Below are positions 4,305-24,106 of a stretch of DNA of 33,216 nt, one piece after another. Position numbers and translations under genes: made by a program. The stretch's first letter is position 1, and the number at the start of each line of letters is the position of its first letter. The notes below the pieces were generated by a model that was given only the letters and a program-made list of their open reading frames with translations, ran no database searches and was not told the origin of the DNA. Source of the stretch: Thermoleophilia bacterium (GTDB lineage Bacteria > Actinomycetota > Thermoleophilia > BMS3ABIN01); contig JACUUL010000021.1 in the NCBI GenBank assembly GCA_014859345.1, forward strand, positions 1 through 33,216, in the 5' to 3' direction.

Positions 4305-4333
4305 TTCAGACTTGCGTGTTCCGGCTTTATAAT
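4305..4333 (+). promoter_or_regulatory. Promoter of B12-rSAM 2
   Basis: The -10 is a perfect TATAAT at 4328-4333 and the -35 is TTCAGA at 4305-4310 (four of six bases match TTGACA), with an ideal 17-base spacing. The predicted transcription start is about 4340, exactly at an in-frame GTG, so the gene may be leaderless. If this promoter is used, an upstream in-frame GTG at 4316 cannot be the start. Confidence 0.6.
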
Positions 4334-4339
4334 GAGGTA

Positions 4340-6075: not shown

Positions 6076-6151
6076 GGTCACCGACTTTCCCTAAGTGGTA
6101 ACATATATCCGCTTAATCATCCCATTACCTTACCTCAGGATTCTTAAACTG

Positions 6152-7611: not shown

Positions 7612-9117
7612 TCAGTCGAAGGAGATCTTGCCCATGGATTTGGCCAGCGTCCATTCCACGGGCAGGTAATAAATGCCGTTCATGACCCGCGCCCGGGAGA
7701 TACGGGTCGCCAGCCGCCTGAGCCGGCCGTGGCCTTCCTCGTGCTCGGGAAAGGCCCATTCGAAGTATTGCAGCCTCTTTTTGATGAAATCCGCGTAATT
7801 CTTATCCAGGGACAGGGACCTGGTAGTGAACTTCACGTCAAATGAGTACTCGGCCCACTCCTCGAGGGACAGGTCCGGCAGGCCGTGCAGCCGCTTGTAT
7901 TCCTCGTACATTTCGCTGCCCGGGAAGGGGTGATAGAACAGCCCCGCGGTGCGGCATTCCGGCATGACCTGTTTCAGCCTCAGCATCAGGTCCAGCGTCA
8001 TCAGCGAGTCCTCGATGGTTTCGCCGGGGAGCCCGAACATGAAGGTGTAACAGGGGTCGACGTCGAGCTCTTTCAGCACTTTCAAGGATTCGACGATGTC
8101 ATCAACTTTTATCCTCTTGTCTATTCGCTTCAGCATGCGGGGAGAGCCCGACTCGCCGCCCACCCCTATGACCTTGAAGCCGGCCCGGCGCACCAGGTCC
8201 TTCATCCCGGCGTCCCATCTGAGGATCAGGTCCGCCCGGGTGGTGGTCACGCAGTCCAGATCGAGGCCGGCCTCGATCATCCCGGTCAGCACCTCCTCTG
8301 TCCATCTAGTGTTTACGAAGAAGATGGTGCCGTCGAACTCGACGGAATCTACACCGTAATTATCCACGAAATACCTGATCTCGCGGATGACCCGTTCGGG
8401 CGGCTTGGAGCTGAAGTGCCGGTGGTACACCGAGGCCACGGAGCAGAAGGTGCAGTTGTAAGGGCAGCCCAGCGAAGAAACATAGAACAGGCGCGCCTTG
8501 CTGCCGTCTTTGAACCGCAGGTAATTATTCATCTCCACCAGAGAGAAGTCCGTCTCCGGTGTTTCCCCGGCGCTTCTCAAATCGCGGGCCGGCTCGTTCA
8601 CGATCGCTCCGGCGGCCGTTCTGTGGGTAAGACCCGCGATGCCGCTGAAGTCGCGGGACCCGGCCTGGAGCCTCTCCGCGAGCTCCAGCGCCGTCCATTC
8701 CCCCTGCCCCCGGACGACGACATCGACGAATTCCGAGACGATGGTCTGCTCCGGGATCGCTGAGGCGTGCCAGCCTCCCCAGACGACGGGCAGATCCGGC
8801 GAGGACTTCCTGATGAATTTCGAGAAATCGAGGGCGCCCCGGATATCGAATCCGGTGCATGCGGTCGCGCCGGCGAAAAGAACATCGCTGTTTTTCAAAA
8901 TCATGGAGACAGTCTGGCGCCAGTTCTCATCGAACCGCTCGTCGATGATCCTGACGTCATAGGCGGGCGTCAGGGCCGACCCTACGGACAGCAGCCCCCA
9001 GGGAGGATATTTGAAGGTCTCTCTAAGTCCCGTGTAATACTTCTTGCTGCGCGGTTTCTCGTTGTTAAGAGGGCCGGGCCAGAACTTCGGCTGAAACAGT
9101 ATTATGGTTTTTTTCAC
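7612..9117 (-). CDS. B12-binding-domain radical SAM protein 3 (WGGYH subgroup)
   Basis: A 501-residue protein. The N-terminal cobalamin-binding-like domain carries the PPWGLLSVGSALT, ATACTGF and VVWGGWHASAIPEQT blocks. The radical SAM cysteines are C218, C222 and C225 in SSLGCPYNCTFC. It also has VGGESGSPRM, MFGLPGET, YHPFPGSEMYEEY and LSLEEWAEYS, and ends with LPVEWTLAKSMGK, the subgroup tail. The start is GTG 9117 with GGAG 6 bases upstream. It is alone on the minus strand between two flippase genes: it converges on flippase 1 and shares a 112-base divergent promoter region with flippase 2. It has the most N-terminal insertion of the subgroup. Whether it is a methylase or another B12-dependent enzyme is unknown. 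Confidence 0.88.
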   Translation of the reverse strand: MKKTIILFQPKFWPGPLNNEKPRSKKYYTGLRETFKYPPWGLLSVGSALTPAYDVRIIDERFDENWRQTVSMILKNSDVLFAGATACTGFDIRGALDFSKFIRKSSPDLPVVWGGWHASAIPEQTIVSEFVDVVVRGQGEWTALELAERLQAGSRDFSGIAGLTHRTAAGAIVNEPARDLRSAGETPETDFSLVEMNNYLRFKDGSKARLFYVSSLGCPYNCTFCSVASVYHRHFSSKPPERVIREIRYFVDNYGVDSVEFDGTIFFVNTRWTEEVLTGMIEAGLDLDCVTTTRADLILRWDAGMKDLVRRAGFKVIGVGGESGSPRMLKRIDKRIKVDDIVESLKVLKELDVDPCYTFMFGLPGETIEDSLMTLDLMLRLKQVMPECRTAGLFYHPFPGSEMYEEYKRLHGLPDLSLEEWAEYSFDVKFTTRSLSLDKNYADFIKKRLQYFEWAFPEHEEGHGRLRRLATRISRARVMNGIYYLPVEWTLAKSMGKISFD

Positions 9118-9229: not shown

Positions 9230-10651
9230 ATGGCCAGGTTCAAGACAGTGCTCAGGCATTCCAGCTACCTCTTCGGGTCCAAGCTGCTTACCCGCCTGCT
9301 CTATACCGTCTTCATCGTCTACGCCGCCGCCAGGCTGGGACCGGAGCTGTTCGGCGTGCTGGCGTTCACCCTGGCCATGGTGGAGCTGCTGTCCTGGATC
9401 GGCGACCTGGGGCTCACCCGCTACGGGGCCCGGGAGCTCATCACCTCCGCCCGCGAAGACCGGCCGGTACTCAGCGGCCAGATACTGGCGCTGCAACTGA
9501 CCAGTTCCGTGATTCTCTGCGCCGCCGGCCTGGCCGCGATACTGGCATGGAGTCCGCCAGAGCCGAAGATGGAGATGCTGCTCATGGGCCTGGTGGCGGT
9601 GCTGTTTTCCGGCGTGGTGAACGCCACCGAATCAGCGCTGGTTGCCAGCCAGAAATTCTTCTACTCGGCCCTGCTGAGCTTCACCGGCCGGCTGATCTTT
9701 TTGGGAGCCGGGTTCGTCGCTATCTCGCTGGGCGCCTCGGTGGTGGTGGTCATGGCCGGATTTCTGGCGGGGATAGCGGTGGAATCGGTCCTCAGGCTCC
9801 TGCTGGTGTCGGCCCGGCTGGCCGGGTTCTCGTTCCGCTTCCGGCCCGCCGCGGTCAAGGCCATGTTTCTGGCGTCGCTGCCTTTTGCAGGCGCCGCCGT
9901 GGCCTCTGTGGTATATTCGCAGGCCGGCATCGTCGCCCTGGAGATCTTCAGGGACGACGCCGACGTGGGCGTGTACGGCGTCGCCTACAACCTGTTCATC
10001 CCTCTGGTCTGGGTCTCCACGGTGCTGGCCAAAGCCATCTTCCCCGGCATGACCGAGCTTCACCGGGAAAGCATGGATTCGGCCCGGCGTTATTTTTATC
10101 AGTGGTACCGGTTGCTGGTGATGGCCGGGGTTCCCATCGCCGTGGCCGTGACTTTCCTGGCAGGGCCGGCGCTCGCCTTTTTCCCCGAGGGATATGAAGA
10201 GAGCGCCGCGGTGCTGATAATTCTCATGTGGTCGGTTCCGTTTCTGATGATCTCTCCGAACGAGCTGAACATCCTCCAGATCATCGGGCGAGAGAGGGAG
10301 GCGGTCCGCTCTCTGTTGACGGTTATGGTCTTCACCGTCCTGCTGCAGTTTGTCCTGGTGCCGTTTTACGGTGTCAAGGGAGCGGCGGCCGCGGCGCTTG
10401 GCGGCGCGCTGGTCAGAGAGGTGCAGTTCTACGAGCTGGTTCGCAGTCATTTCTTCCTGGGTAAGCATTTTTTTGTTTTGTTCCTGCGGCCGGCCGCCGC
10501 GGGCGCGGCCATGGCCGCGGTGGCGCTGCTGGCATGGAATCTCATGGGTCCCTGGGTTGCCACGGCCGCAGGCGGGGCCGCGTACGTGGCGACCTTGTTC
10601 ATCTCTGGGGGCGTCAGCATTTCGGAAATCAAGGGTCTGGCAAGGAGCTAG
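9230..10651 (+). CDS. Wzx/MATE-like flippase (copy 2)
   Basis: A 473-residue polytopic membrane protein, paralogous to the flippase at 6152-7576. Both share the N-terminal LFGSKLLTRLL-like block, ARLGPELFGVLAFTLA, and GDLGLTRYGARELI. About 12-14 hydrophobic helices follow; the C-terminal quarter is more divergent. It probably moves a lipid-linked product across the membrane. The gene appears to begin a short operon: asparagine synthetase 1 starts 4 bases after its stop codon, so export and amidation may be co-expressed. The start ATG has no ribosome binding site but sits just after a -10-like hexamer. Confidence 0.88.
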   Translation: MARFKTVLRHSSYLFGSKLLTRLLYTVFIVYAAARLGPELFGVLAFTLAMVELLSWIGDLGLTRYGARELITSAREDRPVLSGQILALQLTSSVILCAAGLAAILAWSPPEPKMEMLLMGLVAVLFSGVVNATESALVASQKFFYSALLSFTGRLIFLGAGFVAISLGASVVVVMAGFLAGIAVESVLRLLLVSARLAGFSFRFRPAAVKAMFLASLPFAGAAVASVVYSQAGIVALEIFRDDADVGVYGVAYNLFIPLVWVSTVLAKAIFPGMTELHRESMDSARRYFYQWYRLLVMAGVPIAVAVTFLAGPALAFFPEGYEESAAVLIILMWSVPFLMISPNELNILQIIGREREAVRSLLTVMVFTVLLQFVLVPFYGVKGAAAAALGGALVREVQFYELVRSHFFLGKHFFVLFLRPAAAGAAMAAVALLAWNLMGPWVATAAGGAAYVATLFISGGVSISEIKGLARS

Positions 10652-10654
10652 CAT

Positions 10655-12550
10655 ATGTGTGGCATAGCAGGCATCGTGAGAATGAAAGGCCTCGAAAACG
10701 GCGATACCCGGCGGGCGGCGCAGATGGGCGATATCCTGAGCCACCGCGGTCCTGACGACGAGGGTTCCCGCGAGGGAGCTAATTACGCCTTTGCCCACCG
10801 GCGCCTCAGCATCATAGACCTGGCCGGCGGCCATCAGCCGATGTCGAACGAGGATGGCAGCGTATGGCTGATTTATAACGGGGAGATCTACAATTTCCTC
10901 AAGCTGCGGGAGGAGCTGGCCTCGAAGGGCCATGAATTCGCCACCCGCTGCGACACCGAGACGATTATCCATCTGTATGAGGAAGAGGGGCCGGCGTGCG
11001 TCGACCGGCTCAACGGGATGTTCGCGTTCGCGCTTTTTGATGAAAGCAGGAGGCTGCTGTTGCTGGCCCGTGACCGCGCCGGCATCAAGCCCCTCTATTA
11101 CTCTTTCGATGGAACTACCCTGGTCTTCGCCTCTGAAGCCAAGGCGATCGTGCAAACATCCGACCGGCCGCCGGCATACGATGCCCGCTCCATCGTTGAC
11201 TTCTTCGCCTTGAGCGTCTTCCAGGAGGGACGCACTGCCTTCGCGGGCGTCAGTGAACTGGAGCCCGGGCATACTCTGTCGTGGGATCTGAGAAACAAGC
11301 CGGATATCAACCGGTACTGGTTTCCGGCGTACGCGGAAAAGACCGTTCTCCAGGGAAGGCGGCTGGCGGCGGCGGTCTCCGATCTGCTGACGGACGCCAT
11401 CCGGAGCCATCTCATCAGCGACGTGCCGGTCGGCACCTATTTGAGCGGCGGCCTTGACTCCAGCGTGGTGTCGGCCGTGGCCAGGCAATATCTGGACGGC
11501 CTCAATACCTTCTCGGCCGGGTTCACGGGCCGGGAGAAGCTTGACGAGCGCGAATACGCCCGAGAGGCGGCGGCCATGATCGGCTCGGCGCACCACGAGG
11601 TGGAAGTGGGGCCGGAGAATTTTCTGGCCAACCTGCAGAAGATAGTCTGGCACATGGACGAGCCGACGCTCAGTCCGGGCGTTTATCCTTATTATTTTCT
11701 TTGCGAACTGGTATCGAGGACCGTCAAGGTGGTGCTGGGCGGCCAGGGCAGTGACGAGCTGTTCGGCGGCTACCCCCGTTACCGCATGGCCCTGCTGGAA
11801 GATGAAATCGCAGCCGCGGCCGGATCGGCGCGTTTCATCCGCATGGCTTTTCTGCTCAACGAATACAGGAAGCGGTACGGACCCGGCAGCCTCAAGAACG
11901 AGCTCAGGCGTCTGCGGGCCCCCGCCTCCCGCCGCATCTACGAGATCGTCAGCGGCTTTCATCCGCGGCGGCTGCCGCATCTGTTCTCGCCCGGTCTTAT
12001 CCGGCAGGCCGGTGGTTACGATCCTTTCACGGCTTTCTCGGATTCATTGGCCGGGTGCGACTCGGAGAATCTCATCGACCGCATGCTCTACAACGATTAT
12101 CACAAAATGCTGCCCAGCATCCTCAGGACCGAGGACCGCATGAGCATGGCCCATTCCATCGAATCACGGGTGCCGTTTCTCGACTACCGCCTGGTGGAGC
12201 TGGCGGCATCGATACCGGCGGCGGCCAAGGTCAGCGGCGACGAGCCCAAGCTCATACTGAAGGAAGTGTCGAAGGGCCAGGTCCCCGAACGGATAATAAA
12301 CCGCCGCAAGCAGGGCTTCACGGCTCCGGTGGAAAGCTGGTTCAGGGGCGCCCTGGGGCACCAGGTCCGCGAACTGCTGCTCGGCGAGCGGGCGGCCGAA
12401 CGCGGCATCTTCGCGCGGCCATATCTGGAACAGGTGGTTTCGCGGTTCCAGGGGCAGGGCAAGGATACCTGGCGGGTCTGGTCTCTGGTGGTTTTCGAGA
12501 TATGGTGCCGGGCTTATCTCGATGGCGAAGGTCCCGGCCCCGGCGGTTGA
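10655..12550 (+). CDS. Asparagine synthetase B-like glutamine amidotransferase (copy 1, intact glutaminase site)
   Basis: A 631-residue two-domain protein. The N-terminal class II glutaminase domain has the nucleophile Cys2 (MCGIAG), HRGPD (30-34), the arginine of RRLSI (R50), NGE (75-77) and D100, all expected for glutamine hydrolysis. The synthetase domain has the ATP PP-loop SGGLDSS (264-270), SPGVYPYY, GGQGSDELFGGY (362-373), where glutamine 364 stands where E. coli AsnB has a catalytic glutamate, and the conserved lysine region EPKLILK. Such proteins amidate free aspartate or, in glycan and natural-product clusters, carboxyl groups of other substrates. AAGGAG lies 8 bases before the ATG. 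It is cotranscribed with flippase 2. A paralog with a dismantled glutaminase site is at 14570-16450. Confidence 0.9.
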   Translation: MCGIAGIVRMKGLENGDTRRAAQMGDILSHRGPDDEGSREGANYAFAHRRLSIIDLAGGHQPMSNEDGSVWLIYNGEIYNFLKLREELASKGHEFATRCDTETIIHLYEEEGPACVDRLNGMFAFALFDESRRLLLLARDRAGIKPLYYSFDGTTLVFASEAKAIVQTSDRPPAYDARSIVDFFALSVFQEGRTAFAGVSELEPGHTLSWDLRNKPDINRYWFPAYAEKTVLQGRRLAAAVSDLLTDAIRSHLISDVPVGTYLSGGLDSSVVSAVARQYLDGLNTFSAGFTGREKLDEREYAREAAAMIGSAHHEVEVGPENFLANLQKIVWHMDEPTLSPGVYPYYFLCELVSRTVKVVLGGQGSDELFGGYPRYRMALLEDEIAAAAGSARFIRMAFLLNEYRKRYGPGSLKNELRRLRAPASRRIYEIVSGFHPRRLPHLFSPGLIRQAGGYDPFTAFSDSLAGCDSENLIDRMLYNDYHKMLPSILRTEDRMSMAHSIESRVPFLDYRLVELAASIPAAAKVSGDEPKLILKEVSKGQVPERIINRRKQGFTAPVESWFRGALGHQVRELLLGERAAERGIFARPYLEQVVSRFQGQGKDTWRVWSLVVFEIWCRAYLDGEGPGPGG

Positions 12551-13488: not shown

Positions 13489-14562
13489 ATGGCTGATAGT
13501 CCCAAAAAACTGGGCGATTACCGCCACTGGTATCACTTTCTGAGGCGCAGCGAAACTGTTCCCGGCGGGCCTCTTTATATCAACATCGAGCCCACCAACG
13601 CCTGCAACCTGAAGTGCAGCGTTTGCAGCACCGATGGCACGCGCCGGCGCGGCTACATGGATCTCGATCTGTTCCGGCGCCTGGTTGATGAGGCCCGGGA
13701 CAGCGGCGTCCAGAAGATCGCGCTTTTTCTGGCCGGGGAGCCGCTGCTGCACAAGGACATCGCCTATATGGTCCGGTACGTGGTGGAGAGGGGCATGGAG
13801 GCGCGCATCCGCACAAACGCCACCATGCTGACCCCGGAGAAGTCCGAGGCGCTCCTCGATGCCGGGCTTGATTTTCTGGGCATAAGTTTCGATGGCGACA
13901 ACAAGCAGGATTACGAGGCTATCCGCGTCGGCGCCGACTACGACCATGTGCTTGAAAACGTTTTCAACTTTCTCCGGCTCAAGAAGCAGAAGGGTCTGGC
14001 CAAGCCTTTTGTCTCCCTGCAGATGATCAAGCTGGTGGAGAATCCGAAGCAGGGGATTGATTCCAGGTTCGTCGAGCAGTTCGCCGGCCTGCCCATCGAC
14101 GAGTTTTCACCCATCAATCCGCACAACTGGCGTGGAGAGAAGGATGATATCGAACAGCGGGAACGGGGACGCAACTACTTTCCCTGCCAATTCCTCTGGT
14201 CGGCGCTGAGCGTCGCCTGGGACGGCAAGGTCGTCTGTTGCGCGGATCTGAACGGACAGCATGCCCTGGGCGATGTCACGAAGCAGACCCTGGAGGAGAT
14301 CTGGAACGGCGAACCATTCAGGCGGCACCGCCGGCTGCTTAAGGAAGGGCGTAACCGCGACCTGTCCCTGTGCGCCGATTGCCACGCGGTCTGGTATTAT
14401 GGCAATCCACGGCTTTTTATCCTCTCGCACCTGCCGCCGTTCGAGCAGTTGAAGAAGGGCTTCAGACGGATTCATCGCCCGCGTCAGACTTATATGGAAT
14501 TACTTCAAAAAACGGAAGAAGAGTCAAGAAGGGAAGCCGACCTCAAGGAGATCGAGGCGTGA
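13489..14562 (+). CDS. SPASM-type radical SAM protein 1
   Basis: A 357-residue radical SAM enzyme without a cobalamin domain. The N-terminal motif IEPTNACNLKCSVC carries cluster cysteines C39, C43 and C46. The middle holds FLAGEPLLH and the GISFDG strand. The C-terminus is a SPASM/Twitch region: a cysteine in YFPCQF, the VAWDGKVVCCADLNG block, GDVTKQTLEEIWNGEPFRRHRR, and a terminal CADC pair, which would bind auxiliary iron-sulfur cluster(s). Family members oxidise alcohols or modify peptides or sugars. It starts a plus-strand run; asparagine synthetase 2 follows 7 bases after its stop. A paralog lies at 28341-29318, beside another methyltransferase. Substrate unknown. Confidence 0.88.
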   Translation: MADSPKKLGDYRHWYHFLRRSETVPGGPLYINIEPTNACNLKCSVCSTDGTRRRGYMDLDLFRRLVDEARDSGVQKIALFLAGEPLLHKDIAYMVRYVVERGMEARIRTNATMLTPEKSEALLDAGLDFLGISFDGDNKQDYEAIRVGADYDHVLENVFNFLRLKKQKGLAKPFVSLQMIKLVENPKQGIDSRFVEQFAGLPIDEFSPINPHNWRGEKDDIEQRERGRNYFPCQFLWSALSVAWDGKVVCCADLNGQHALGDVTKQTLEEIWNGEPFRRHRRLLKEGRNRDLSLCADCHAVWYYGNPRLFILSHLPPFEQLKKGFRRIHRPRQTYMELLQKTEEESRREADLKEIEA

Positions 14563-14569
14563 GAGTTTT

Positions 14570-16450
14570 ATGAGCGGCATAGCCGGCATCCTCAAAACTC
14601 CATCAAGCGCCGTATCCGAAGAAGAGCTTATCCGCCTCGCCGACGCCATCGCCCATCGGGGGCCGGATGGCCGGGCGACCTTTATCGATGCCAATCTGGG
14701 GCTGGCCCATTGCTATCTCCGGATCCCCTCGGCGGTATCGACGCCGCATCCCGTCTATAACGAAGACCGGAGCCTGGCGGCGGTGTGCGACGGGCGCGTC
14801 TATAATCATGCGGAACTGCGGCGCCGGCTTGAGGCAAAAGGGCACCGGTTCTCCACCGCGTCCGATGTCGAGGTGCTTCTCCATCTTTACGAGGAGAAAG
14901 GAAACCGGTTTCTGGATGATGTCAACGGCATGTACGGTCTGGCGCTCTGGGACGGCCGCCGCCGGCGGCTGCTCCTGGCCCGTGATCGCATTGGCGTCAA
15001 GCCCCTTTATTACGCCCAGGCCGCCTCGGGACTGCTGTTCGGATCGGAGATAAAGGCCATCCTGGCCGATGCTTCGGTCAAGCGCCGGGTCAACTTCCGG
15101 GCCATGAGTGATTTTTTCGGTCTCTCATACATTTTCGACGGCGAGACCATGTTCGAAGACATCATGGCGGTACCGCCCGGCTGCATCTACTCTGTTGAGG
15201 CAGGCCGGCCGGGCAGGCTCAGCCGCTACTGGGAGATGGAGTTCGACCCCGACCGTCCCTGGAACGAGCCGGAGTTGATGGAAAGGGGTTTGGCGGTGCT
15301 GGAAGAGGCGGTCGCCCTGGAGATCGCCGATGTGGATCAGGTGGGCATCCATCTGAGCGGAGGCATCGACTCAAGCTTTATCACCTCACTGGCGGCGCGC
15401 AATGACCGCGATCGCATTATCGCCCTGTCGGCTGGGTTCAGGGAGAAGAGTTACGACGAACGCGACTATGCGCGCCTGGCCGCCGAGCAGGCCGGGGTGG
15501 AGCACCGCGAGGTGGAGGTCTTTCCCGAGGAGACCACATTCCTGGACACCATGGAAAAGGTGATCTGGCATGTGGACGAGCCCACGGTCAGCCCTGGTAT
15601 CCATTCTTTTTATGTGCTCAACGAATTCACCGCCCGGCACGTCAAGGTGGTTCTGGGCGGCCAGGGCAGCAACGAGCTGCTGGCCGGGTACAACCGCTAC
15701 GTCCTGGCCGAGACCAGGGATGTGTTCGCCCGGCATCTGAAGCGCCTGAACCTGCCCGGCATGGTTGGCGACATCCGGGCGACGGCAGGGTTTTTCGGGC
15801 CCAGGCCGCTAAAGGGCATGCTGCTTGAGGCATCCAGGTCCCCCGGGCAGCGGGCCCTCAAAATCGCCAGTACATTCGCCCCCCGGGAGAAGCTGGAGCT
15901 CTTCTCCGACGCGGTGAGAGCCCACCTGAATGGTTATACCACCGAGCGGCGGTACCTTTCAGGATTCGAATCAGCTCCGGCCAGCACCACCATGGACCGG
16001 ATGATGTATCTGGACATGAAGAACATGATGCCCAACATGTGCCGCATCCTCGACCGCACCAGCGCCGCTTTCGGCGTGGAGGCGCGCACCCCTTATCTGG
16101 ACCACAATTTTGTGGAGTTCGCCGCCAGCCTGCCTGATGATGCCGTGCTCAAAGGCACCGAATCGAAATACATCCTGAAAAAGATGGGAGAGGGGATACT
16201 CAATCACGGCACCATCTACCGCGACAAATCGGGATTCGCGGCTCCGGTGACCCCGTGGCTGCAGGGGCATCTGCGGCGGGAGGCCCGCGACATCATCTTC
16301 TCCCGCCGGGCCCTGGGCCGCGGCTATTTCGATGAGGGAAGCATGCGGACGCTGGTGGACCGCCATGAGAAGACCGGCCGCGGCGTGTGGCAGGTATGGA
16401 TGCTGCTTATCTTCGAGCTCTGGCACCGCAAGTTCATCGACGGAGACTGA
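14570..16450 (+). CDS. Asparagine synthetase-like protein with degenerate glutaminase site (copy 2)
   Basis: A 626-residue paralog of the protein at 10655-12550. The synthetase half looks able to bind ATP: SGGIDSS PP-loop (263-269), SPGIHSFY, GGQGSNELLAGY (363-374) and ESKYILKK. The N-terminal glutaminase half, however, has lost its key residues: Cys2 is Ser (MSGIAG), the substrate-binding arginine is Tyr49 (HCYLRI), and NGE has become DGR (74-76); HRGPD and D99 remain. It should therefore not hydrolyse glutamine. Possibilities are use of free ammonia, another amine, a partner glutaminase, or a beta-lactam-synthetase-like intramolecular reaction. GSDE of copy 1 is GSNE here. It follows SPASM rSAM 1 by 7 bases, so the two are probably cotranscribed. 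Confidence 0.88.
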   Translation: MSGIAGILKTPSSAVSEEELIRLADAIAHRGPDGRATFIDANLGLAHCYLRIPSAVSTPHPVYNEDRSLAAVCDGRVYNHAELRRRLEAKGHRFSTASDVEVLLHLYEEKGNRFLDDVNGMYGLALWDGRRRRLLLARDRIGVKPLYYAQAASGLLFGSEIKAILADASVKRRVNFRAMSDFFGLSYIFDGETMFEDIMAVPPGCIYSVEAGRPGRLSRYWEMEFDPDRPWNEPELMERGLAVLEEAVALEIADVDQVGIHLSGGIDSSFITSLAARNDRDRIIALSAGFREKSYDERDYARLAAEQAGVEHREVEVFPEETTFLDTMEKVIWHVDEPTVSPGIHSFYVLNEFTARHVKVVLGGQGSNELLAGYNRYVLAETRDVFARHLKRLNLPGMVGDIRATAGFFGPRPLKGMLLEASRSPGQRALKIASTFAPREKLELFSDAVRAHLNGYTTERRYLSGFESAPASTTMDRMMYLDMKNMMPNMCRILDRTSAAFGVEARTPYLDHNFVEFAASLPDDAVLKGTESKYILKKMGEGILNHGTIYRDKSGFAAPVTPWLQGHLRREARDIIFSRRALGRGYFDEGSMRTLVDRHEKTGRGVWQVWMLLIFELWHRKFIDGD

Positions 16451-16593: not shown

Positions 16594-18054
16594 ATGAAAG
16601 TCCTTTTCGTCTATCCCAACATAGCGCGCAACCGTTCGCCGCAGGTGGGCCTCAGCTCCCTGGCGGGCACCCTGGCCCGCGCCGGCCACGATTGCCGCTT
16701 GCTTGACATCACTTTTATCGAAGACTCCCGGGTAGCCGGCGCCTACCGGCGTCTTCTCGAGGATTATCAGCCTGATCTTGTCGGTTTTTCCTGCCGCAGC
16801 ACCGAATGGGAAACGGCCCAGGCCATCATGCGCATGGCCGATCCTGATGCTCCCGTTGTCGTTGGCGGTCCCCACGCAACCATTGCCCCCGAAGAAGTGA
16901 TCGCCGACCCGCGTGTGGACATGCTGGTTCGGGGCGAGGGTGAGGAGGCCATCATCGACCTGATCGGCCGCCTGGAGTCAGGCGCCGGCCTCTCGGATAT
17001 GCCCAACCTGTGGGGAAGAAAAGATGGCGCGGTCTTCAGCAACGATGTGCGGCCGCTGATTCAGGACCTGGACAGCATCGCCATGCCCGACTGGAGCCTG
17101 TGGGACGAGCGACATTTCCGTGAGCATGCCCATCATGCCTTTTCGCGGACGGCCGAGGTCTTCGGCGATCTGGAGACCTCCCGGGGATGCCCATATTCCT
17201 GCCCGTACTGCCTGACCCCGGTGATGCAGGAGATATACCGGGGCAAGGGCAAGTATCACCGCGAGAAGTCAGCCGGGCGGATTGTTGCCGAGGTGGCGAA
17301 AATCCGGGAGGAGCGCGGCATCGATTATGTCAGGTTCGTGGACGAGACCTTCATCCTTAATCGCGGGCGCCTCAAGGAATTCTGCGAGATGTACCGGGAT
17401 GATATAGGCCTGCCGTTCTCCTTCAGCACCCGGCCCGAGACCGTCAGCGACGACATGATGAGGCTGCTGGCAGGCGCCGGGGCCAACTGCGTCTCTTTTG
17501 GGCTGGAGTCCGGCAATGAACAGTACCGGCGCGAGATGCTTAACCGCCGCACCAAGCAACGCGAGGTTATCGATGCGGTGGCGCTCGCCAAGAAATACGG
17601 CGTCAAGACCTTCGCCTTCGTAATGATCGGCCTGCCTCACGAGACGAGGGAGCATATCCAGGACACCCTGGAGCTCATTCACCTGTTGCAGCCGGACGTG
17701 TTCCAGATCACCATTTTTTATCCCTTCGAGGGGACGCCTTTCTACGAATACTGCATCAGCGAGGGCCTCCTGGACAAGGACCACGAACGGCTGACAGAGA
17801 TCTGGAAAGGTTCGGTTCTCAAGCAGCCGGGGCTGTCCAGCGATTATCTGGTCCGCCTGCGGGAGCTGATGTTCGTGTTCGCCCGCCTGGAAAAGCGCTG
17901 GTGGCCTCTGATGACCTTCCTGGAAAAGCGGCCGCTGGCCTACGCCGTCTGGCATAACGCCCGCCGCGGCAGGCGGCTGGCGGCCAGGATCGCCCGGCGG
18001 CTGACCAACGGCCGCCGGGGCCGTTCGCCCCAGGCCGAAATCACGGGAACCTGA
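16594..18054 (+). CDS. B12-binding-domain radical SAM protein 4
   Basis: A 486-residue protein with a cobalamin-binding-like domain (VLFVYPNIARN; QVGLSSLAGTLARAGHD; VVVGGPHATIAPEEV at 88-102; VRGEGEEA) and a radical SAM domain with cysteines C199, C203 and C206 in SRGCPYSCPYC. FGLESGNEQ, FVMIGLPHETRE and FYPFEGTPFYEYC follow. With its GGPHAT motif it groups with B12-rSAM 1 rather than with the WGGYH subgroup; proteins of this shape include BchE, hopanoid HpnJ-like and P-methylase-like enzymes. The C-terminal 60 residues are very basic (RRGRRLAARIARR). A GAAGG lies about 10 bases before the ATG. B12-rSAM 5 starts 16 bases after its stop, so it probably opens an operon running to 21980. Confidence 0.9.
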   Translation: MKVLFVYPNIARNRSPQVGLSSLAGTLARAGHDCRLLDITFIEDSRVAGAYRRLLEDYQPDLVGFSCRSTEWETAQAIMRMADPDAPVVVGGPHATIAPEEVIADPRVDMLVRGEGEEAIIDLIGRLESGAGLSDMPNLWGRKDGAVFSNDVRPLIQDLDSIAMPDWSLWDERHFREHAHHAFSRTAEVFGDLETSRGCPYSCPYCLTPVMQEIYRGKGKYHREKSAGRIVAEVAKIREERGIDYVRFVDETFILNRGRLKEFCEMYRDDIGLPFSFSTRPETVSDDMMRLLAGAGANCVSFGLESGNEQYRREMLNRRTKQREVIDAVALAKKYGVKTFAFVMIGLPHETREHIQDTLELIHLLQPDVFQITIFYPFEGTPFYEYCISEGLLDKDHERLTEIWKGSVLKQPGLSSDYLVRLRELMFVFARLEKRWWPLMTFLEKRPLAYAVWHNARRGRRLAARIARRLTNGRRGRSPQAEITGT

Positions 18055-18070: not shown

Positions 18071-19525
18071 ATGAGTGACAAGGTCACCCTCATCTTCCCC
18101 CGCCTGAGGCGCGAGAGCAACGTGTGGGCGCCGCTGCCCCTCATGGCCGTGGCTGCGCCTTTGCTCGCCGAAGGTTTCGAGATCGAGCTGCTGGACCCCC
18201 GGACTTTCCATCCCCACATCCCGGAGATCCTGCAGGCAGCCGGCGGCTCCCTTTTCGTAGGACTCTCGGTGATGACCGGATTCCAGATCCGGGACGCGGT
18301 GATCATTTCAAAGGCGCTTAAGGACGTTTATCCGGAGATGCCGGTGGTCTGGGGGGGCTACCATGCCAGCATGCTGCCGGAGCAGACCCTGGCCGAGGAT
18401 TACGTAGACATGGTCATCCGGGGGCAGGGCCAGCCGACGGCGCTGGAGCTGGCGCGCAGGCTGGCCGCCGGCGAAGACCTCGAGGGGGTGCCGGGCCTGT
18501 GTTACAAGCGGGACGGCGAGGCCATCGTCGCCGAGCATCCGCCTCTGGTGGAGATCGATCAGTACCCCTCCACGCCTTATGACATCCTCGACATCGAGAC
18601 GTATATGGTGCCCGATCTGGGCACCCGCACCATGAAGTATTTCTCGTCGCAAGGTTGCCCGTTCGGCTGCGGTTTCTGCGCCGAGACCTCCATGTACGGC
18701 CGCGGCTGGGTCGGCTTTCCGCCGGAGCGGGTATTGGACGATCTCGAGAATCTGGCCAAAAATTACGGAGTCAACGCCATCGATTTCGCCGATACCAACT
18801 TCTTTGTCAGCAAAAAGCGGGTCAAGGCCATCTGCGAGGGCATCCTGGAGCGGGGGCTCGACCTGAAGTGGGCTGCCGACGTGCGCACCAGGCAGTTCAT
18901 CGACTTCTCGCCCCGGTTCCGGGAGCTGATCCGCGACGCAGGATGCCGCCGTCTGCTGCTGGGAGCAGAGTCAGGCTCCCAGGAGGCGCTGAAGATGATC
19001 GGCAAGCAAACCACGGTGGATGATACCCTGCATGTGGCGCGTCTCTGCGACGGCCTGGGCATCACCGCGCGCTTTACCACAATGTTCGGTTTTCCGGGGG
19101 AGCCGGAGAAGGACATCGAGTTGACGCTGAGGATGATTGAAGGCATCAAGGCCGTCAATGAGGATTTCGAAGTGCATGGCTTTTTCTTCGCTCCATATCC
19201 GGGAGCTCCAATGTACGAGGAGGCCGTACAGCTGGGCTTTAGGCCGCCCGGCTGGCTGGAAGGGTGGGCCGACTTCGATCTCACCGAACTGCACACTCCC
19301 TGGGTGAATCCCGAATACAAGAAGAAAGTTGACATGATCATTGATTTTTATATGCCCTATGCCTCGCCGGGGCCCGAGCTGCGGCAGAAGATGGCCGCGG
19401 GGGGGCCCAGATCATATGCTTACAGGGCCATGCACCGTCTGGCTTCCTGGCGGGTGGGCAACCGCAATTTCGAGGCGCCTCTGGAGTGGAAGCTGAAGCA
19501 GCTAAAAGCAGGGCGCAGGGGATGA
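18071..19525 (+). CDS. B12-binding-domain radical SAM protein 5 (WGGYH subgroup)
   Basis: A 484-residue protein. The N-terminal domain has APLPLMAVAAPLLAEGFE, LSVMTGFQIRD and VVWGGYHASMLPEQT. The cluster cysteines are C196, C200 and C203 in SSQGCPFGCGFC. It has the subgroup blocks FADTNFFVSKKRV, LLGAESGSQEALK, MFGFPGEPEKD, FAPYPGAPMYEEA, GWLEGWADFD and the tail APLEWKLKQLK. The last codons overlap the start of zinc-ribbon methyltransferase 1 by 4 bases (ATGA), indicating translational coupling. The most similar gene products nearby are those at 20520 and 26768. Its likely activity is a radical methylation or rearrangement needing cobalamin; the substrate is unknown. Confidence 0.9.
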   Translation: MSDKVTLIFPRLRRESNVWAPLPLMAVAAPLLAEGFEIELLDPRTFHPHIPEILQAAGGSLFVGLSVMTGFQIRDAVIISKALKDVYPEMPVVWGGYHASMLPEQTLAEDYVDMVIRGQGQPTALELARRLAAGEDLEGVPGLCYKRDGEAIVAEHPPLVEIDQYPSTPYDILDIETYMVPDLGTRTMKYFSSQGCPFGCGFCAETSMYGRGWVGFPPERVLDDLENLAKNYGVNAIDFADTNFFVSKKRVKAICEGILERGLDLKWAADVRTRQFIDFSPRFRELIRDAGCRRLLLGAESGSQEALKMIGKQTTVDDTLHVARLCDGLGITARFTTMFGFPGEPEKDIELTLRMIEGIKAVNEDFEVHGFFFAPYPGAPMYEEAVQLGFRPPGWLEGWADFDLTELHTPWVNPEYKKKVDMIIDFYMPYASPGPELRQKMAAGGPRSYAYRAMHRLASWRVGNRNFEAPLEWKLKQLKAGRRG

Positions 19526-20523
19526 AGGCCGATTTAAAAAAAGAGCAAAAAAGCGGCAAAGACGCGGGCCAGCCGGTCAACTGCGCCGTCTGCGGCAGCG
19601 CCGGCGCCACGCTTAAATGGACAGTGCGGGACACGCTGCTGGATTTCCAGGGTGAGCAACAGATAGTCCAATGCCGCCTGTGCGGCACTCTCAGGATGTC
19701 GCCCTTGCCTCCTTTCGAGGAGCGCCGCCGCGCCTTTAGCGACGAGTATCCCCTGTTCGACTGGGCGCTGGGACGCAAGCATGCTTCCCCCGGGCAGCGC
19801 ATCGCCCGCTTCGCCGCCCAGATAGATCAGATCAACCGGCGCCAGCGTCCCGGCCGGCTTCTGGACGTGGGCGCCGGCGATGGATATTTCATGCTGTGCA
19901 TGAAGCAGCGAGGCTGGGAGGTGAGCGGCATCGAGCTCAACGAACAGGTCGCAATCTTCGCCCGCGAACAGCTGGGACTGGACATGGCAGCCGGCGCCGA
20001 GCACGAGGTGGACTGGGACGGCAGCTACGATTGCATCACGCTTTTTGGCGTGATCGAGGATGTCGACGATCCAGCAGCTCTGCTGGGACGGTGCCACCGG
20101 CACCTCAACGAGGGCGGCCTGCTGGTTGTCCAGACGCACAATATAGCTTCCTGGGAGGCCCGCTACTTCGGACGGCACTGGTTTAACGTGGAAGCGCCCC
20201 GGCACGTATGGCACTTTTCGCCGGGAACGCTCGGGCGGTTGCTGGAACAAAATCGCTTCGGCCTGGAGGACCTGTTGCACTACGGTTCGGCTTTCGTCAC
20301 CGAGCGCAGCATCGAGAACCGGAGGGGCCGGAAGTTTCCCGCGTCCGCCCTGGACCGGTTGCTGAGGAAAGTGGCCATCGCTCCGGCGGAGAAGATCCTG
20401 CCCCGCCTGGGACAGGGCATCATGATCGAAGCTTACTGCCGCAAGGCGGGCCGCGCAGCCGGGGCCCCGGGCCCGCAGGTGGACAGCCCGGGGCGGGTGG
20501 CCCCAAAGAAGGCGGTTAAATGA
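19522..20523 (+). CDS. Zinc-ribbon class I SAM methyltransferase (copy 1)
   Basis: A 333-residue protein. A zinc ribbon at the N-terminus (C21-x2-C24 and C51-x2-C54) is followed by a class I methyltransferase domain with motif I LLDVGAGDGYF, acidic IELNEQ and FGVIEDVDDP. It also has the VQTHNIASWEARYFGRHW and VEAPRHVWHFSPGTL blocks of the Methyltransf_23-like group that occurs in glycan clusters. ATG 19522 overlaps the stop of B12-rSAM 5 (ATGA), and its own stop overlaps the start of B12-rSAM 6 in the same way, so the three proteins should be made in a fixed ratio. The zinc ribbon may hold the domain together or bind a partner. A second protein of this design is at 29315-30292, again directly after an rSAM gene. 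The acceptor is unknown. Confidence 0.88.
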   Translation: MKADLKKEQKSGKDAGQPVNCAVCGSAGATLKWTVRDTLLDFQGEQQIVQCRLCGTLRMSPLPPFEERRRAFSDEYPLFDWALGRKHASPGQRIARFAAQIDQINRRQRPGRLLDVGAGDGYFMLCMKQRGWEVSGIELNEQVAIFAREQLGLDMAAGAEHEVDWDGSYDCITLFGVIEDVDDPAALLGRCHRHLNEGGLLVVQTHNIASWEARYFGRHWFNVEAPRHVWHFSPGTLGRLLEQNRFGLEDLLHYGSAFVTERSIENRRGRKFPASALDRLLRKVAIAPAEKILPRLGQGIMIEAYCRKAGRAAGAPGPQVDSPGRVAPKKAVK

Positions 20524-21980
20524 AGTTTGTCTTTTTCTTCCCTCTGACCAACAAGAACAACGCCCACAAGGTGAGCCCGCCCCTGAGCGTCATGGCTCTG
20601 GCGGCGCCGCTTAAGGCCAGGAACATCGAGGTGGATATCGTCGATGCCCGGGTGGAGCCGGATTATCGCGGGCGGGTGCTGGCCAGCATGGCCGACGCCG
20701 ACCTCCTCGGGGTAAGCTCCATGACCGGCTGGCAGATAGCCGACGGCCTGGCCGTTTCACAGGCCGTCAAGGAGAGATACCCGGAAAAACCGGTTGTCTG
20801 GGGCGGCTACCATCCCTCTTTGCTGGCCGAGCAGACGGCGCGCGATCCGCGGGTGGATATCGTGGTCCGGGGCCAGGGCGAGCATGCCTGCCTGGAGCTG
20901 GCCGGCTGGCTCGAGGGCGGGAAAGGCCTGGAAGAGATCGACGGCCTGACCTTTCTCACGGACGGCAAGGTCGTCAGCAACCCCGAGCGCCGCGTGGCCG
21001 ACATCAACGAGTTTCCCCCCATGCCATATGACCTGGTCGACGTGGAGAGTTATATGGATTTCAACCGCCGCGTGCACGGCGATACCCGCAGGGGCTTGAG
21101 CTATGTCTCCAGCTTTGGTTGTCCGCACGCCTGCGGCTTCTGCTCAAACCCCGAGGCCTATGGCCGCAAATGGAAGGGGCTTTCGGCAGAACGGGTGGTG
21201 GCTGAAGTGACGGAACTGGTCGAGCGCTACGATCTGGACCGGGTTTATTTCGATGACAACAACTTCTTCGCCTCCAAGCGCCGGGTACGGGAGATCTGCC
21301 GGGGTTTTCTGGATTCGCGGCGCCGGTTTGAATGGTTCGCCACCATCCGGCCATCGCAGGTGATGGCCTTTGGCGACGAGGACCTGAACCTGATCCGCGA
21401 TTCCGGCTGCACGAAGTTCATGATGGGGGCCGAGTCGGGCGACAACTCGGTCCTGGAGCTGATCAACAAGGGCAACGAGGCCCAGGACGTGCTGGACGCC
21501 ACCCGCCGCTGCCGCGACCACAGCATCCAGCCTTCCTACGTTTTCATCTTTGGTTTCCCCACCGAGAGCTGGAAGCAGATGCAGACGACGCTCGATTTCA
21601 TGAAGCAGCTTAAAGAGATATACGCCGACACCCGCACCACCACGCTCTTCTTCACTCCATACCCCGGCACAGCTCTGACCCGCCTGGGTGAGGCGGGCGG
21701 CTTCAGCATGCCCGCCACCCTTGAAGACTGGGCCGTCTACGACGCCCGGACCGTTCAGACTCCCTGGATATCCCGTAAACAGAAAATGAAGGTGAAACAG
21801 ATCGCCGACTTTTACCTGCCCTGGGCCTATCCAAATCAGCTGGCCCGGGAAAAGGTCTCACGCAGCCGGGCAAAGCCCGTCTTCTGGCTGTTTACCCTGG
21901 CCTGCCGGATCCGGGTGCGCCTGGACTATTACAGCCTTCCCTGGGAATGGAACCTGGCCCGGGCCCTCAGGCTTGCCTGA
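20520..21980 (+). CDS. B12-binding-domain radical SAM protein 6 (WGGYH subgroup)
   Basis: A 486-residue protein. The cobalamin-like domain carries SPPLSVMALAAPLKARNIE, VSSMTGWQIAD and VVWGGYHPSLLAEQT. The cysteines C201, C205 and C208 are in SSFGCPHACGFC. It also has YFDDNNFFASKRRV, MMGAESGDNSVLE, IFGFPTESWKQ, FTPYPGTALTR, TLEDWAVYDARTVQTPW and the tail LPWEWNLARAL. The ATG overlaps the methyltransferase stop by 4 bases. It closes the operon before a 377-base non-coding stretch. The GET motif common in the last strand of the rSAM core is TES here. The spacing of conserved blocks is close to that of the proteins at 18071 and 26768, so these three form the tightest paralog set. Confidence 0.9.
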   Translation: MKFVFFFPLTNKNNAHKVSPPLSVMALAAPLKARNIEVDIVDARVEPDYRGRVLASMADADLLGVSSMTGWQIADGLAVSQAVKERYPEKPVVWGGYHPSLLAEQTARDPRVDIVVRGQGEHACLELAGWLEGGKGLEEIDGLTFLTDGKVVSNPERRVADINEFPPMPYDLVDVESYMDFNRRVHGDTRRGLSYVSSFGCPHACGFCSNPEAYGRKWKGLSAERVVAEVTELVERYDLDRVYFDDNNFFASKRRVREICRGFLDSRRRFEWFATIRPSQVMAFGDEDLNLIRDSGCTKFMMGAESGDNSVLELINKGNEAQDVLDATRRCRDHSIQPSYVFIFGFPTESWKQMQTTLDFMKQLKEIYADTRTTTLFFTPYPGTALTRLGEAGGFSMPATLEDWAVYDARTVQTPWISRKQKMKVKQIADFYLPWAYPNQLAREKVSRSRAKPVFWLFTLACRIRVRLDYYSLPWEWNLARALRLA

Positions 21981-22357
21981 GATTTTTCCTGCCCCGCGGC
22001 CAGGGCTCCCGCCGCTCCGCTTTGCAGTAAACCCCCGATAACACTTTCCGGGTCCCAGCCTATGCTCGCCTCTCATTTGTCGCTGTTTCTGCGTGTGCGC
22101 CGGCATGATTTTCTGACCGGCCTGGTTCGGCGCTGGCAACAGTTTGCTTCCGCTCGCGGTGAACTCGCCGCAGCTTTCAGGCTGTTTGCTTCCGAAGTGG
22201 TGGGATTTCCCCGGCCTATTGGTGGAAATCCCTGATAGACGCCCTCTGAGGACCGCCTTAGACTTTTTTGACCATTCAGGTTTGCTTTGAGCCCGCCTGT
22301 TTGGCAGCGAAGGCAGGCGGGCTTGCATTCCGGATTCGAATCGCTCTGAGGGGGGCC
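21981..22357. other. Structured 377-base leader upstream of the secreted protein
   Basis: No convincing gene lies here. Several strong stem-loops are seen on the plus strand: GCGCCG with CGGCGC; a bulged stem around 22152-22174 (GCGG with CCGC); GGGATTTCC (22202-22210) with GGAAATCCC (22224-22232); and AGCCCGCCTG (22290-22299) with CAGGCGGGCT (22314-22323). GTTTGCTT occurs three times, at 22142, 22184 and 22280, the first two within the 11-mer GTTTGCTTCCG. A T-run lies at 22264-22269. A palindrome, GATTCGAATC, is at 22333-22342. The arrangement suggests a structured 5' leader or a cis-regulatory RNA, but I cannot match it to a known riboswitch. Confidence 0.4.
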
Positions 22358-24106
22358 ATGATTCGGAAGCGTCATCGCTTGATAGAGCTATCAGGAGCAA
22401 TGGTTTTTGCAATCGCCATTATGCTGGCGCCTGGCCGCGCGGCGGACGCGCAGTCCGGGAATCCGGATGCGCCTGAAATATTCATGAGCGGCGCCGCATT
22501 TTTTGGAATCGGCGAGCAAATCCCCGGCCTTCACGTCCAGAAAAATGGGACGAACTACATGAAGAACCCTTCGGCGGGAGTTAACACAGATGGGTCATAC
22601 AGTCAGTTCGACGCTGTGATAGAACGGCATGACGCAGGCTGCTATCTGGGCGGCTCCTGCTGGAAGGTGACCACGGGGGGTGACAGGTATTCCGGCATAG
22701 TTTTCCGGGAAGCTGACGCCTTTGAGCTGCCTCCGTTGGATCCAGGCCACGACCAGTACGCGCTCAGCTTCTGGGCGAAGGCGCTAAAGAGCAGCGAATC
22801 CGCGAACGAAATGCGCATATACGCCTTCGAGACCTCGCCCTTCGAAATATGGGCATCGCTCGGAGAGCAGGAGCTTGGCGACGACTGGAGGCTCTATTCA
22901 CTCACATTCACTGTGGATGACACCGATCTCCAGATAGCCGTACTGCCCCACGCGGACGGGACAGGCTCGGAGGGCACCGTGGTGTTGATCGATGGTGTGA
23001 CCCTGGAGCCCGAAAGATCGTTTGATGATTTCTATCAAGGAACCATCGCCAATAAAAGCTACGCGGTCCCTCCTTACAACGGCGATTCACCCGGTTGCTA
23101 CTGGGAGGGAGAGCCGCACGCGTCGAGGTCTGCGCGGATGCAGGGGAAGGCAGACATAGACGGTTCGGAGCTGAACATCGACTTCGACCGGGCGTTCTGG
23201 TTTGGCATGGATGTCACCCTCGGATTTAACCGGGAGGACAGTTTCGAAACCATCTCCACAGAATGGCTTTCGGTCGGAACTCCCCGTGGCGACGGCCTGG
23301 GTTGGGTCGATAACGTCGCTCTGGTCTTCGATTGGCACAGCCCTTATGGAATCGGCGGTGATTACAGGGTTTACTTCCACCGGGAGGAAGCGGGCAGCGG
23401 CGCCGAGATCGTCATGCCGAGGGGAATAGTAGCCGGTGACGTCATGAGGGCCGTGGGAATCTTCGACCCGGACGGCAGAAAGACACATCTCTATCTGCGA
23501 TTCAACGATGGCGAGGTTCTTTCAGACTCGCGCCTGCTTGCCTATGGCCCTGGAGGCGGGATATTGCCAATGCCGCCCGGTCACATGGTGGGCATAGGCT
23601 ATGCCAACGGCTGGGAAGGTCCCTGGCAGACCAACTCCGCGCACAGGAATCTCGTGCTCGAACAGGGGTTGCCCACTGCCGACCAGATAAGCGCCTATCT
23701 CAGCAATCCCGACGAGCCGGTTTTAAACGGCGGCTACTTTCTCCCCTTGAAAGAGGCGCCGTCCTGCAAACCCGTCAGGCCGGGGCTGAGTCCGTCTTAC
23801 CAGGGCGCATACTGGGCCAGCTTCAGGGACTATACCGATCGCATCCTGTCCATCGATATCAGCATCACCAACGAAGGACCCGTCGCTTATTCGGTAGAGG
23901 TGGTCGGAGCCACGAACACCATGGGAGTGACGCTGGACAGCGACATTCCGGTAGTTTTCGGGGATATCGCCGCCGGCGACAGCGCGACGGCGACAGTCGC
24001 GTACACCGTACCCGCGGGCATCGGGGCCTTCAGGACCTCCATTAACGCGACCGCCCGGGACGCCTGCGGAGTCTCTCACATCTATCCGGACGACGCGCCC
24101 ATCTAG
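22358..24106 (+). CDS. Secreted beta-sandwich protein of unknown function
   Basis: A 582-residue protein with a signal peptide at residues 1-31 (basic RKRHR, a hydrophobic core, cleavage after ADA). The N-terminal mature part resembles a carbohydrate-binding-like jelly roll in its layout: CWKVTTGG, YALSFWAKALKSS, WRLYSLTFTVDD and VVLIDGVTLEP are strands typical of CBM4/9-like folds. The middle (about 250-430) has LamG-like segments, for example VALVFDW and VMRAVGIFDPDGRKTHLYLRFNDGEV. The last 100 residues look like an Ig-like domain (DISITNEGPVAYSVEV; ATATVAYTVPAG). ATG 22358 has a GAGG-rich site just upstream; a TTG at 22268 would put 30 residues before the signal peptide. It lacks an obvious catalytic motif. 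It may bind the exported glycan, but this is inference. Confidence 0.7.
   Translation: MIRKRHRLIELSGAMVFAIAIMLAPGRAADAQSGNPDAPEIFMSGAAFFGIGEQIPGLHVQKNGTNYMKNPSAGVNTDGSYSQFDAVIERHDAGCYLGGSCWKVTTGGDRYSGIVFREADAFELPPLDPGHDQYALSFWAKALKSSESANEMRIYAFETSPFEIWASLGEQELGDDWRLYSLTFTVDDTDLQIAVLPHADGTGSEGTVVLIDGVTLEPERSFDDFYQGTIANKSYAVPPYNGDSPGCYWEGEPHASRSARMQGKADIDGSELNIDFDRAFWFGMDVTLGFNREDSFETISTEWLSVGTPRGDGLGWVDNVALVFDWHSPYGIGGDYRVYFHREEAGSGAEIVMPRGIVAGDVMRAVGIFDPDGRKTHLYLRFNDGEVLSDSRLLAYGPGGGILPMPPGHMVGIGYANGWEGPWQTNSAHRNLVLEQGLPTADQISAYLSNPDEPVLNGGYFLPLKEAPSCKPVRPGLSPSYQGAYWASFRDYTDRILSIDISITNEGPVAYSVEVVGATNTMGVTLDSDIPVVFGDIAAGDSATATVAYTVPAGIGAFRTSINATARDACGVSHIYPDDAPI

Follow-up and report, generated by a model that had tools for sequence, protein, structure and literature searches.

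What does a protein of the asparagine synthetase B (AsnB) type do once its glutamine site has been replaced while its ATP site is kept? The question is posed by one of two AsnB-like genes in the window, that is, the whole 33,216-nucleotide stretch of Thermoleophilia contig JACUUL010000021.1 analyzed here. The two encoded proteins, which we named AsnQ and PAR, resemble each other in domains and length, are 37–38% identical and lie in the same cluster. However, PAR retains Cys2, Arg49, N-G-E and Asp351, which AsnQ lacks.

10655 to 12550, forward strand: PAR, the paralog, with Cys2, Arg49, N-G-E and Asp351 intact
14570 to 16450, forward strand: AsnQ, 626 residues, ATG start, GATase-type N domain and Asn_synthase C domain

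AsnQ matches the Pfam domains PF13537, PF13522 and PF00733 (268 bits), and its AlphaFold2 model, generated with 65 homologs (mean pLDDT 94.3, pTM 0.93), predicts a well-ordered two-domain enzyme. A Foldseek search of the PDB with this model returned TsnB9 (7ylz) as the top match, followed by AsnB (1ct9), human asparagine synthetase (ASNS), beta-lactam synthetase and carbapenam synthetase. TsnB9, a hydroxyamidotransferase, is the closest solved structure by both sequence and fold, at ~23% identity; it starts with MCG and carries SGETYN where AsnQ has DGRVYN. E. coli AsnB and human ASNS share with AsnQ the fold (TM 0.62–0.65 on the query), the PP-loop, Lys449 and the lysine of the KYILKK region. 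Unlike these enzymes, AsnQ has Ser2, D-G-R, Asn368 and His261 and no Arg49. Beta-lactam synthetase (1jgt) and CarA (1q15) also share the overall fold, but their fold match is below that of AsnB and they are not the nearest relatives of AsnQ by sequence.

Active site residues were assigned by alignment to AsnB from E. coli K-12 and compared across a family alignment of 104 members, which include 16 AsnQ orthologs. In AsnQ, the glutamine site is altered at the following positions.

14573 to 14575, forward strand: Ser2, replacing the catalytic N-terminal Cys (mature Cys1 of AsnB), from the alignment
14714 to 14716, forward strand: Tyr49, replacing the glutamine-binding Arg49, from the alignment
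14789 to 14797, forward strand: D74-G-R76, replacing N-G-E, invariant in the 16 orthologs

Ser, encoded by AGC or AGT, occupies column 2 in 16/16 AsnQ proteins, while the other members that reach this column all have Cys (79/79). Position 49 is Phe in 11, Leu in 4 and Tyr in 1 of the AsnQ proteins and Arg in none, compared with Arg in 81/81 others. The remaining members have Asn74 (81/81) and Glu76 (80/82), and within the 104-member alignment D-x-R is exclusive to the 16 AsnQ proteins. AsnB Asp98 is retained, as Asp99. The corresponding human ASNS residues, Arg48, Asn74, Glu76 and Asp96, are parts of the glutamine-recognition and thioester network (PMC6748925). The initial annotation had set Ser2, Tyr49 and DGR of AsnQ against the Cys, Arg and NGE of PAR and AsnB; the alignment bears out each of these residues, and conservation of Ser2 and D-G-R in orthologs, which it proposed checking, is complete (16/16). 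Its contrast at position 49 holds in part, as Arg is absent from all 16 orthologs but Tyr itself is not conserved. Its further claim, that AsnQ should not release ammonia from glutamine, is also upheld at the sequence level: with the nucleophile and three glutamine-recognition residues replaced in 16/16 orthologs, there is a strong case that glutamine hydrolysis should be lost. A misplaced start codon masking a Cys was considered and rejected, because the starts (ATG, GTG or TTG) and the following xSGIAG align across the orthologs and with the MCGIAG of PAR.

These replacements have a practical consequence. AsnQ scores 397.2 bits against TIGR01536, the glutamine-hydrolyzing asparagine synthase family, well above its cutoff of 267.1, and automatic annotation would therefore give AsnQ that name. 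Yet the glutamine site that defines the family (the N-terminal Cys and R49/N74/E76) is found neither in AsnQ nor in the 16 orthologs. AsnQ thus represents a directly testable misannotation, in which "glutamine-hydrolyzing asparagine synthase" is very probably the wrong name.

Of the 19 species in the order to which the window belongs, 16 carry AsnQ, at 68–72% identity and with the window's own genome counted. This order consists of a single family of actinobacteria that are uncultured and represented by metagenome-assembled genomes (MAGs). A scan of GTDB genome contigs found 13 loci, eleven of them at 68–71% identity, in actinobacterial MAGs (Thermoleophilia, Gaiellales and others). Outside the own family, no ortholog was found in a sample of 399 genomes of the class (about 380 without the family; best other match, 38% identical) or in one of 396 genomes of the phylum (about 390 without the family; best other match, 37%). 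A 17th species (G008) carries a C-terminal AsnQ fragment that is 79% identical. In the same genome, open reading frames at the start of a contig (L035, 33–683) translate to strings such as LEFRRVLFRS; we take such strings to resemble Illumina adapter read-through, and this contig end is presumably contaminated.

The orthologs are under clear constraint. In the three AsnQ pairs of lowest dS, dN/dS was 0.04, 0.10 and 0.09 (NG86), and dN in the C subdomain was 0.005–0.033 in the three closest pairs. Mean identity among AsnQ proteins is 66% in the GATase domain, 74% in residues 167–376, 55% in 377–470, 90% in 471–565 and 72% in the tail; the matching regions of PAR gave 71, 75, 66, 82 and 61%. The synthetase C subdomain (471–565) is thus the part of AsnQ under the strongest constraint, and the GATase domain is just slightly looser than that of PAR. 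Because the nucleophile and three glutamine-recognition residues are replaced in every ortholog, the loss of the glutaminase site is a fixed divergence and not recent decay. A pseudogene in progress, to which the loss of several catalytic residues might point, has next to no chance of being correct, given that the changes are fixed in 16 species, dN/dS is 0.04–0.10 and the predicted fold is full length and of high confidence.

Orthologs with an intact Cys2/NGE site, which the initial annotation had named as the sign of such decay, do not occur among the 16. One sequence resembles such an ortholog. At the end of a Desulfobacteraceae MAG contig (L016, 7914–8753), the first ~165 residues of the encoded protein are those of an ordinary MCG/NGE AsnB, and the last ~85–100 are AsnQ-like (77% identical over 99 residues). 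The switch lies in the conserved LARDPIGIKPLY stretch, the GC content rises there from 0.49 to 0.63, and the contig stops before Asn368. The position of the switch, the GC jump and the contig end argue that this sequence is probably an assembly chimera or a recombinant and not an AsnQ ortholog with an intact glutaminase. Among 297 genomes of the same phylum no AsnQ ortholog was found, the best matches apart from this fragment being 33–35% identical. If real, the fusion would favor ammonia as the AsnQ nucleophile.

The synthetase site presents a mixture of retained and newly invariant residues.

15350 to 15352, forward strand: His261, at AsnB Leu232 / human Leu255, a hydrophobic tunnel residue, from the alignment
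15356 to 15376, forward strand: SGGIDSS PP-loop (ATP/pyrophosphate), residues 263–269, with Ser263 and Asp267 in 104/104 family members
15602 to 15607, forward strand: His345-Ser346, in place of a mostly hydrophobic residue and a conserved Pro; invariant in AsnQ, with Pro346 in 77/88 others
15656 to 15691, forward strand: GGQGSNELLAGY motif, with Asn368 (15671–15673) for AsnB Asp351, from the alignment
16166 to 16183, forward strand: KYILKK, with Lys533 retained (Lys in 102/102)
16226 to 16228, forward strand: Lys553, equivalent to AsnB Lys449 and human Lys466 (Lys in 102/102)

Of the features of an AMP-forming AsnB-type synthetase (PF00733), AsnQ thus has the PP-loop and Lys449 and lacks Asp351. 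Glu504 and Arg506 are also conserved in AsnQ, and Thr507, Val526, Asp552 and Ser554 add to the invariant residues that are specific to AsnQ. Position 261, which is mostly Phe, Tyr, Leu or Met elsewhere, is invariably His in AsnQ. AsnB Asp351, which is human Asp367 and belongs to the GxGxDE motif, is replaced by Asn368 in 16/16 AsnQ proteins and is Asp in all 88 relatives. In beta-lactam synthetase, the equivalent Asp coordinates Mg. In human ASNS, Leu255 lines the tunnel (PMC11615228), and Asp367 was placed by computation at the aspartyl-AMP alpha-amino group; D367A has no activity, but D367N retains reduced ammonia-dependent activity (PMC6748925). The replacement of Asp by Asn at 368 would therefore fit a changed substrate, and it is no proof of a dead site; by analogy with the human enzyme, Asn368 appears compatible with catalysis on another substrate. 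Since Asp351 is otherwise universal (88/88), however, Asn368 could also signal loss of activity. The expectation that the synthetase site is kept, set out in the initial annotation, was correct for SGGIDSS, Lys533 of KYILKK and Lys553, but not for Asp351 and Leu232, which are Asn368 and His261 in all orthologs. A mutated synthetase site in relatives, which it had named as counting against its reading, is formally present at one position (Asn368), although death of the site is not implied, as human D367N is partly active (PMC6748925).

The substitutions in both sites (Ser2, D-G-R and Asn368), the co-occurrence of AsnQ with PAR and the constraint on a GATase domain that would be dead as a glutaminase could all be accounted for if AsnQ were a pseudoenzyme acting on PAR as a regulator or scaffold, with ATP or an adenylate bound. 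We judge this unlikely, as the PP-loop and both lysines are fully retained and the synthetase C subdomain is better conserved in AsnQ than in PAR. The retention of the PP-loop, Glu504, Arg506, Lys533 and Lys553 counts instead for a catalytic AsnQ.

A tree of 97 sequences (quick IQ-TREE, LG+G4), built from a set that excludes beta-lactam synthetase, CarA and the lasso cyclases, resolved AsnQ and PAR as one clade each (SH-aLRT 100 for both) and placed them as sisters (SH-aLRT 99). The AsnQ stem is long, at 0.84 changes per column. PAR is present, whole or partial, in every genome that carries AsnQ, and in relatives with both genes on one contig the two are on the same strand, 0.1–7 kb apart. The simplest account of these data is that AsnQ arose by duplication in the ancestor of the order and then passed through rapid change followed by strong constraint. 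In one genome of the family that is 98% complete (G002), no AsnB-like protein was found, AsnQ and PAR included, apart from a weak short match, which suggests that AsnQ and PAR are cluster enzymes and not the asparagine supply of the cell. Another genome (G006, 88% complete) has just pieces of an AsnB-like protein, with ~40% identity to AsnQ.

The gene neighborhood, by its encoded families, is that of a surface-glycan cluster.

6095 to 7576, forward strand: Wzx-type flippase (Polysacc_synt, Pfam)
9230 to 10651, forward strand: predicted Wzx-type flippase, directly 5' of PAR; role inferred from its hydrophobic sequence and kept beside PAR in relatives
13489 to 14562, forward strand: radical SAM/SPASM protein (Pfam), directly 5' of AsnQ
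16594 to 18054, forward strand: B12-binding radical SAM protein (Pfam), directly 3' of AsnQ

The protein encoded at 9230–10651 has no NCBIfam match. The window also encodes a PMT_2 protein and FkbM and other methyltransferases. A longer contig from a relative (G009) extends the cluster by GT1 and GT2 glycosyltransferases, Wzy_C ligases or polymerases, a DegT aminotransferase, a Bac_transf initiating transferase, a GDP-mannose 4,6-dehydratase-like protein and LytR-CpsA-Psr. A homolog of the radical SAM/SPASM protein at 13489–14562 (58–59% identical) lies directly upstream of AsnQ at loci L048, L051, L053, L058 and L059, and homologs of the 16594–18054 protein (73–78% identical) adjoin or are near AsnQ in several relatives. 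No uronic acid-forming gene was seen within the window; 4/4 genomes examined carry a gene of the UDP-sugar dehydrogenase family at another location.

The best NCBIfam match of AsnQ is TIGR03108 (XrtA/PEP-CTERM eps_aminotran_1), against which AsnQ scores 445.4 bits and PAR 508.0, with a cutoff of 816.9. The members WbpS, WbqG and PGN_1234 are, like AsnQ, AsnB-like proteins encoded in surface-glycan clusters beside wzx. Unlike this WbpS-type family, AsnQ falls below the TIGR03108 cutoff and lacks the glutaminase residues. WbpS makes uronamides from uronic acids (PMC7468200). PAR is probably a WbpS-like sugar glutamine amidotransferase, and on its sequence AsnQ would be filed under the AsnB-like synthetases as a variant, outside the beta-lactam synthetases. 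A relationship by descent to beta-lactam synthetase, whose type of reaction the initial annotation had brought up, finds no backing, with AsnQ the sister of PAR (in a tree that did not contain beta-lactam synthetase) and its fold nearer to TsnB9 and AsnB.

Similarity to beta-lactam synthetase could still be one of chemistry, with AsnQ closing an amide inside a peptide or small molecule. Beta-lactam synthetase and CarA likewise have no catalytic Cys, keep the synthetase fold and form their amide with an amine. Radical SAM/SPASM proteins such as those near AsnQ are known from RiPP clusters, and AsnQ matches the lasso peptide cyclase profile NF033535, at 253 bits (cutoff 525). We nonetheless regard a lactam or peptide cyclase as very unlikely: the neighborhood is one of glycan biosynthesis, no lasso precursor or B-protein gene is among the annotated neighbors of AsnQ in the window, and AsnQ groups with PAR, albeit in a tree without lasso cyclases, beta-lactam synthetase or CarA.

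We favor, with a probability of about 0.5, AsnQ being an ATP-dependent amide ligase that acts on a surface glycan without using glutamine; its sequence and context are best read as those of an enzyme for glutamine-independent amide formation. AsnQ, with its AsnB fold, would adenylate a carboxylate, most likely that of a uronic acid or other carboxylated sugar of the glycan, as suggested by the WbpS-type kinship and the TIGR03108 match. It would then couple the adenylated carboxylate to an amine bound in the remodeled pocket, with His261 as the candidate general base at the former opening of the ammonia tunnel. The dead glutaminase site and the polarity of the tunnel mouth both hint at such a nucleophile. 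That the pocket and tunnel positions have become new invariants (Asn368, His261, His345 and Ser346) counts for this mechanism. The purifying selection on the GATase domain counts against it, as a pure synthetase would need no such domain unless it is structural, and so do Asn368 and the failure to find a uronic acid-forming gene in the window.

The amine might, alternatively, be ammonia, taken up free or passed on by PAR within a hetero-oligomer, in which case AsnQ would make a primary amide such as a uronamide. Consistent with this, PAR is found in every AsnQ genome, usually nearby and on the same strand, the AsnB-like PesC accepts ammonia instead of glutamine (PMC13060819) and the reduced activity left in human D367N is ammonia dependent (PMC6748925). 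However, the invariant His261 at the tunnel mouth (Leu232) is a poor fit to the passage of neutral ammonia, and PAR has an intact synthetase site of its own. An ammonia-fed amidotransferase thus seems rather unlikely, though it is the likeliest of the alternatives to the favored reading. Returning to the glutamine-independent ligase, a bolder form of this reading is that AsnQ is the founding member of a new amide ligase type, derived from a sugar amidotransferase by rebuilding of the tunnel and of the substrate Asp (His261 and Asn368), which would join a glycan carboxylate and an organic amine into an amide-linked decoration characteristic of the order; we offer it tentatively, as possible but doubtful. 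The chemistries of beta-lactams, carbapenams and lasso peptides come from AsnB-fold enzymes that abandoned glutamine. With the intact twin adjoining and species sampled across the order, a clear case from a surface-glycan cluster would document the conversion of a sugar amidotransferase into another amide synthetase.

Further genes of the window deserve mention. Seven B12-binding radical SAM proteins are encoded within 33 kb (980–2356, 4316–5812, 7612–9117, 16594–18054, 18071–19525, 20520–21980 and 26768–28300), in addition to two radical SAM/SPASM proteins. This unusual density suggests that sugars or lipids are heavily C-methylated or rearranged. Two proteins, encoded at 22268–24106 (612 residues) and 31439–33196 (585 residues), have no Pfam match; the former has a weak NCBIfam match, below cutoff, to a phage head spike fiber domain. 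Finally, a phosphoenolpyruvate synthase / pyruvate phosphate dikinase-like protein is encoded on the opposite strand inside the cluster (24201–26597, reverse strand).
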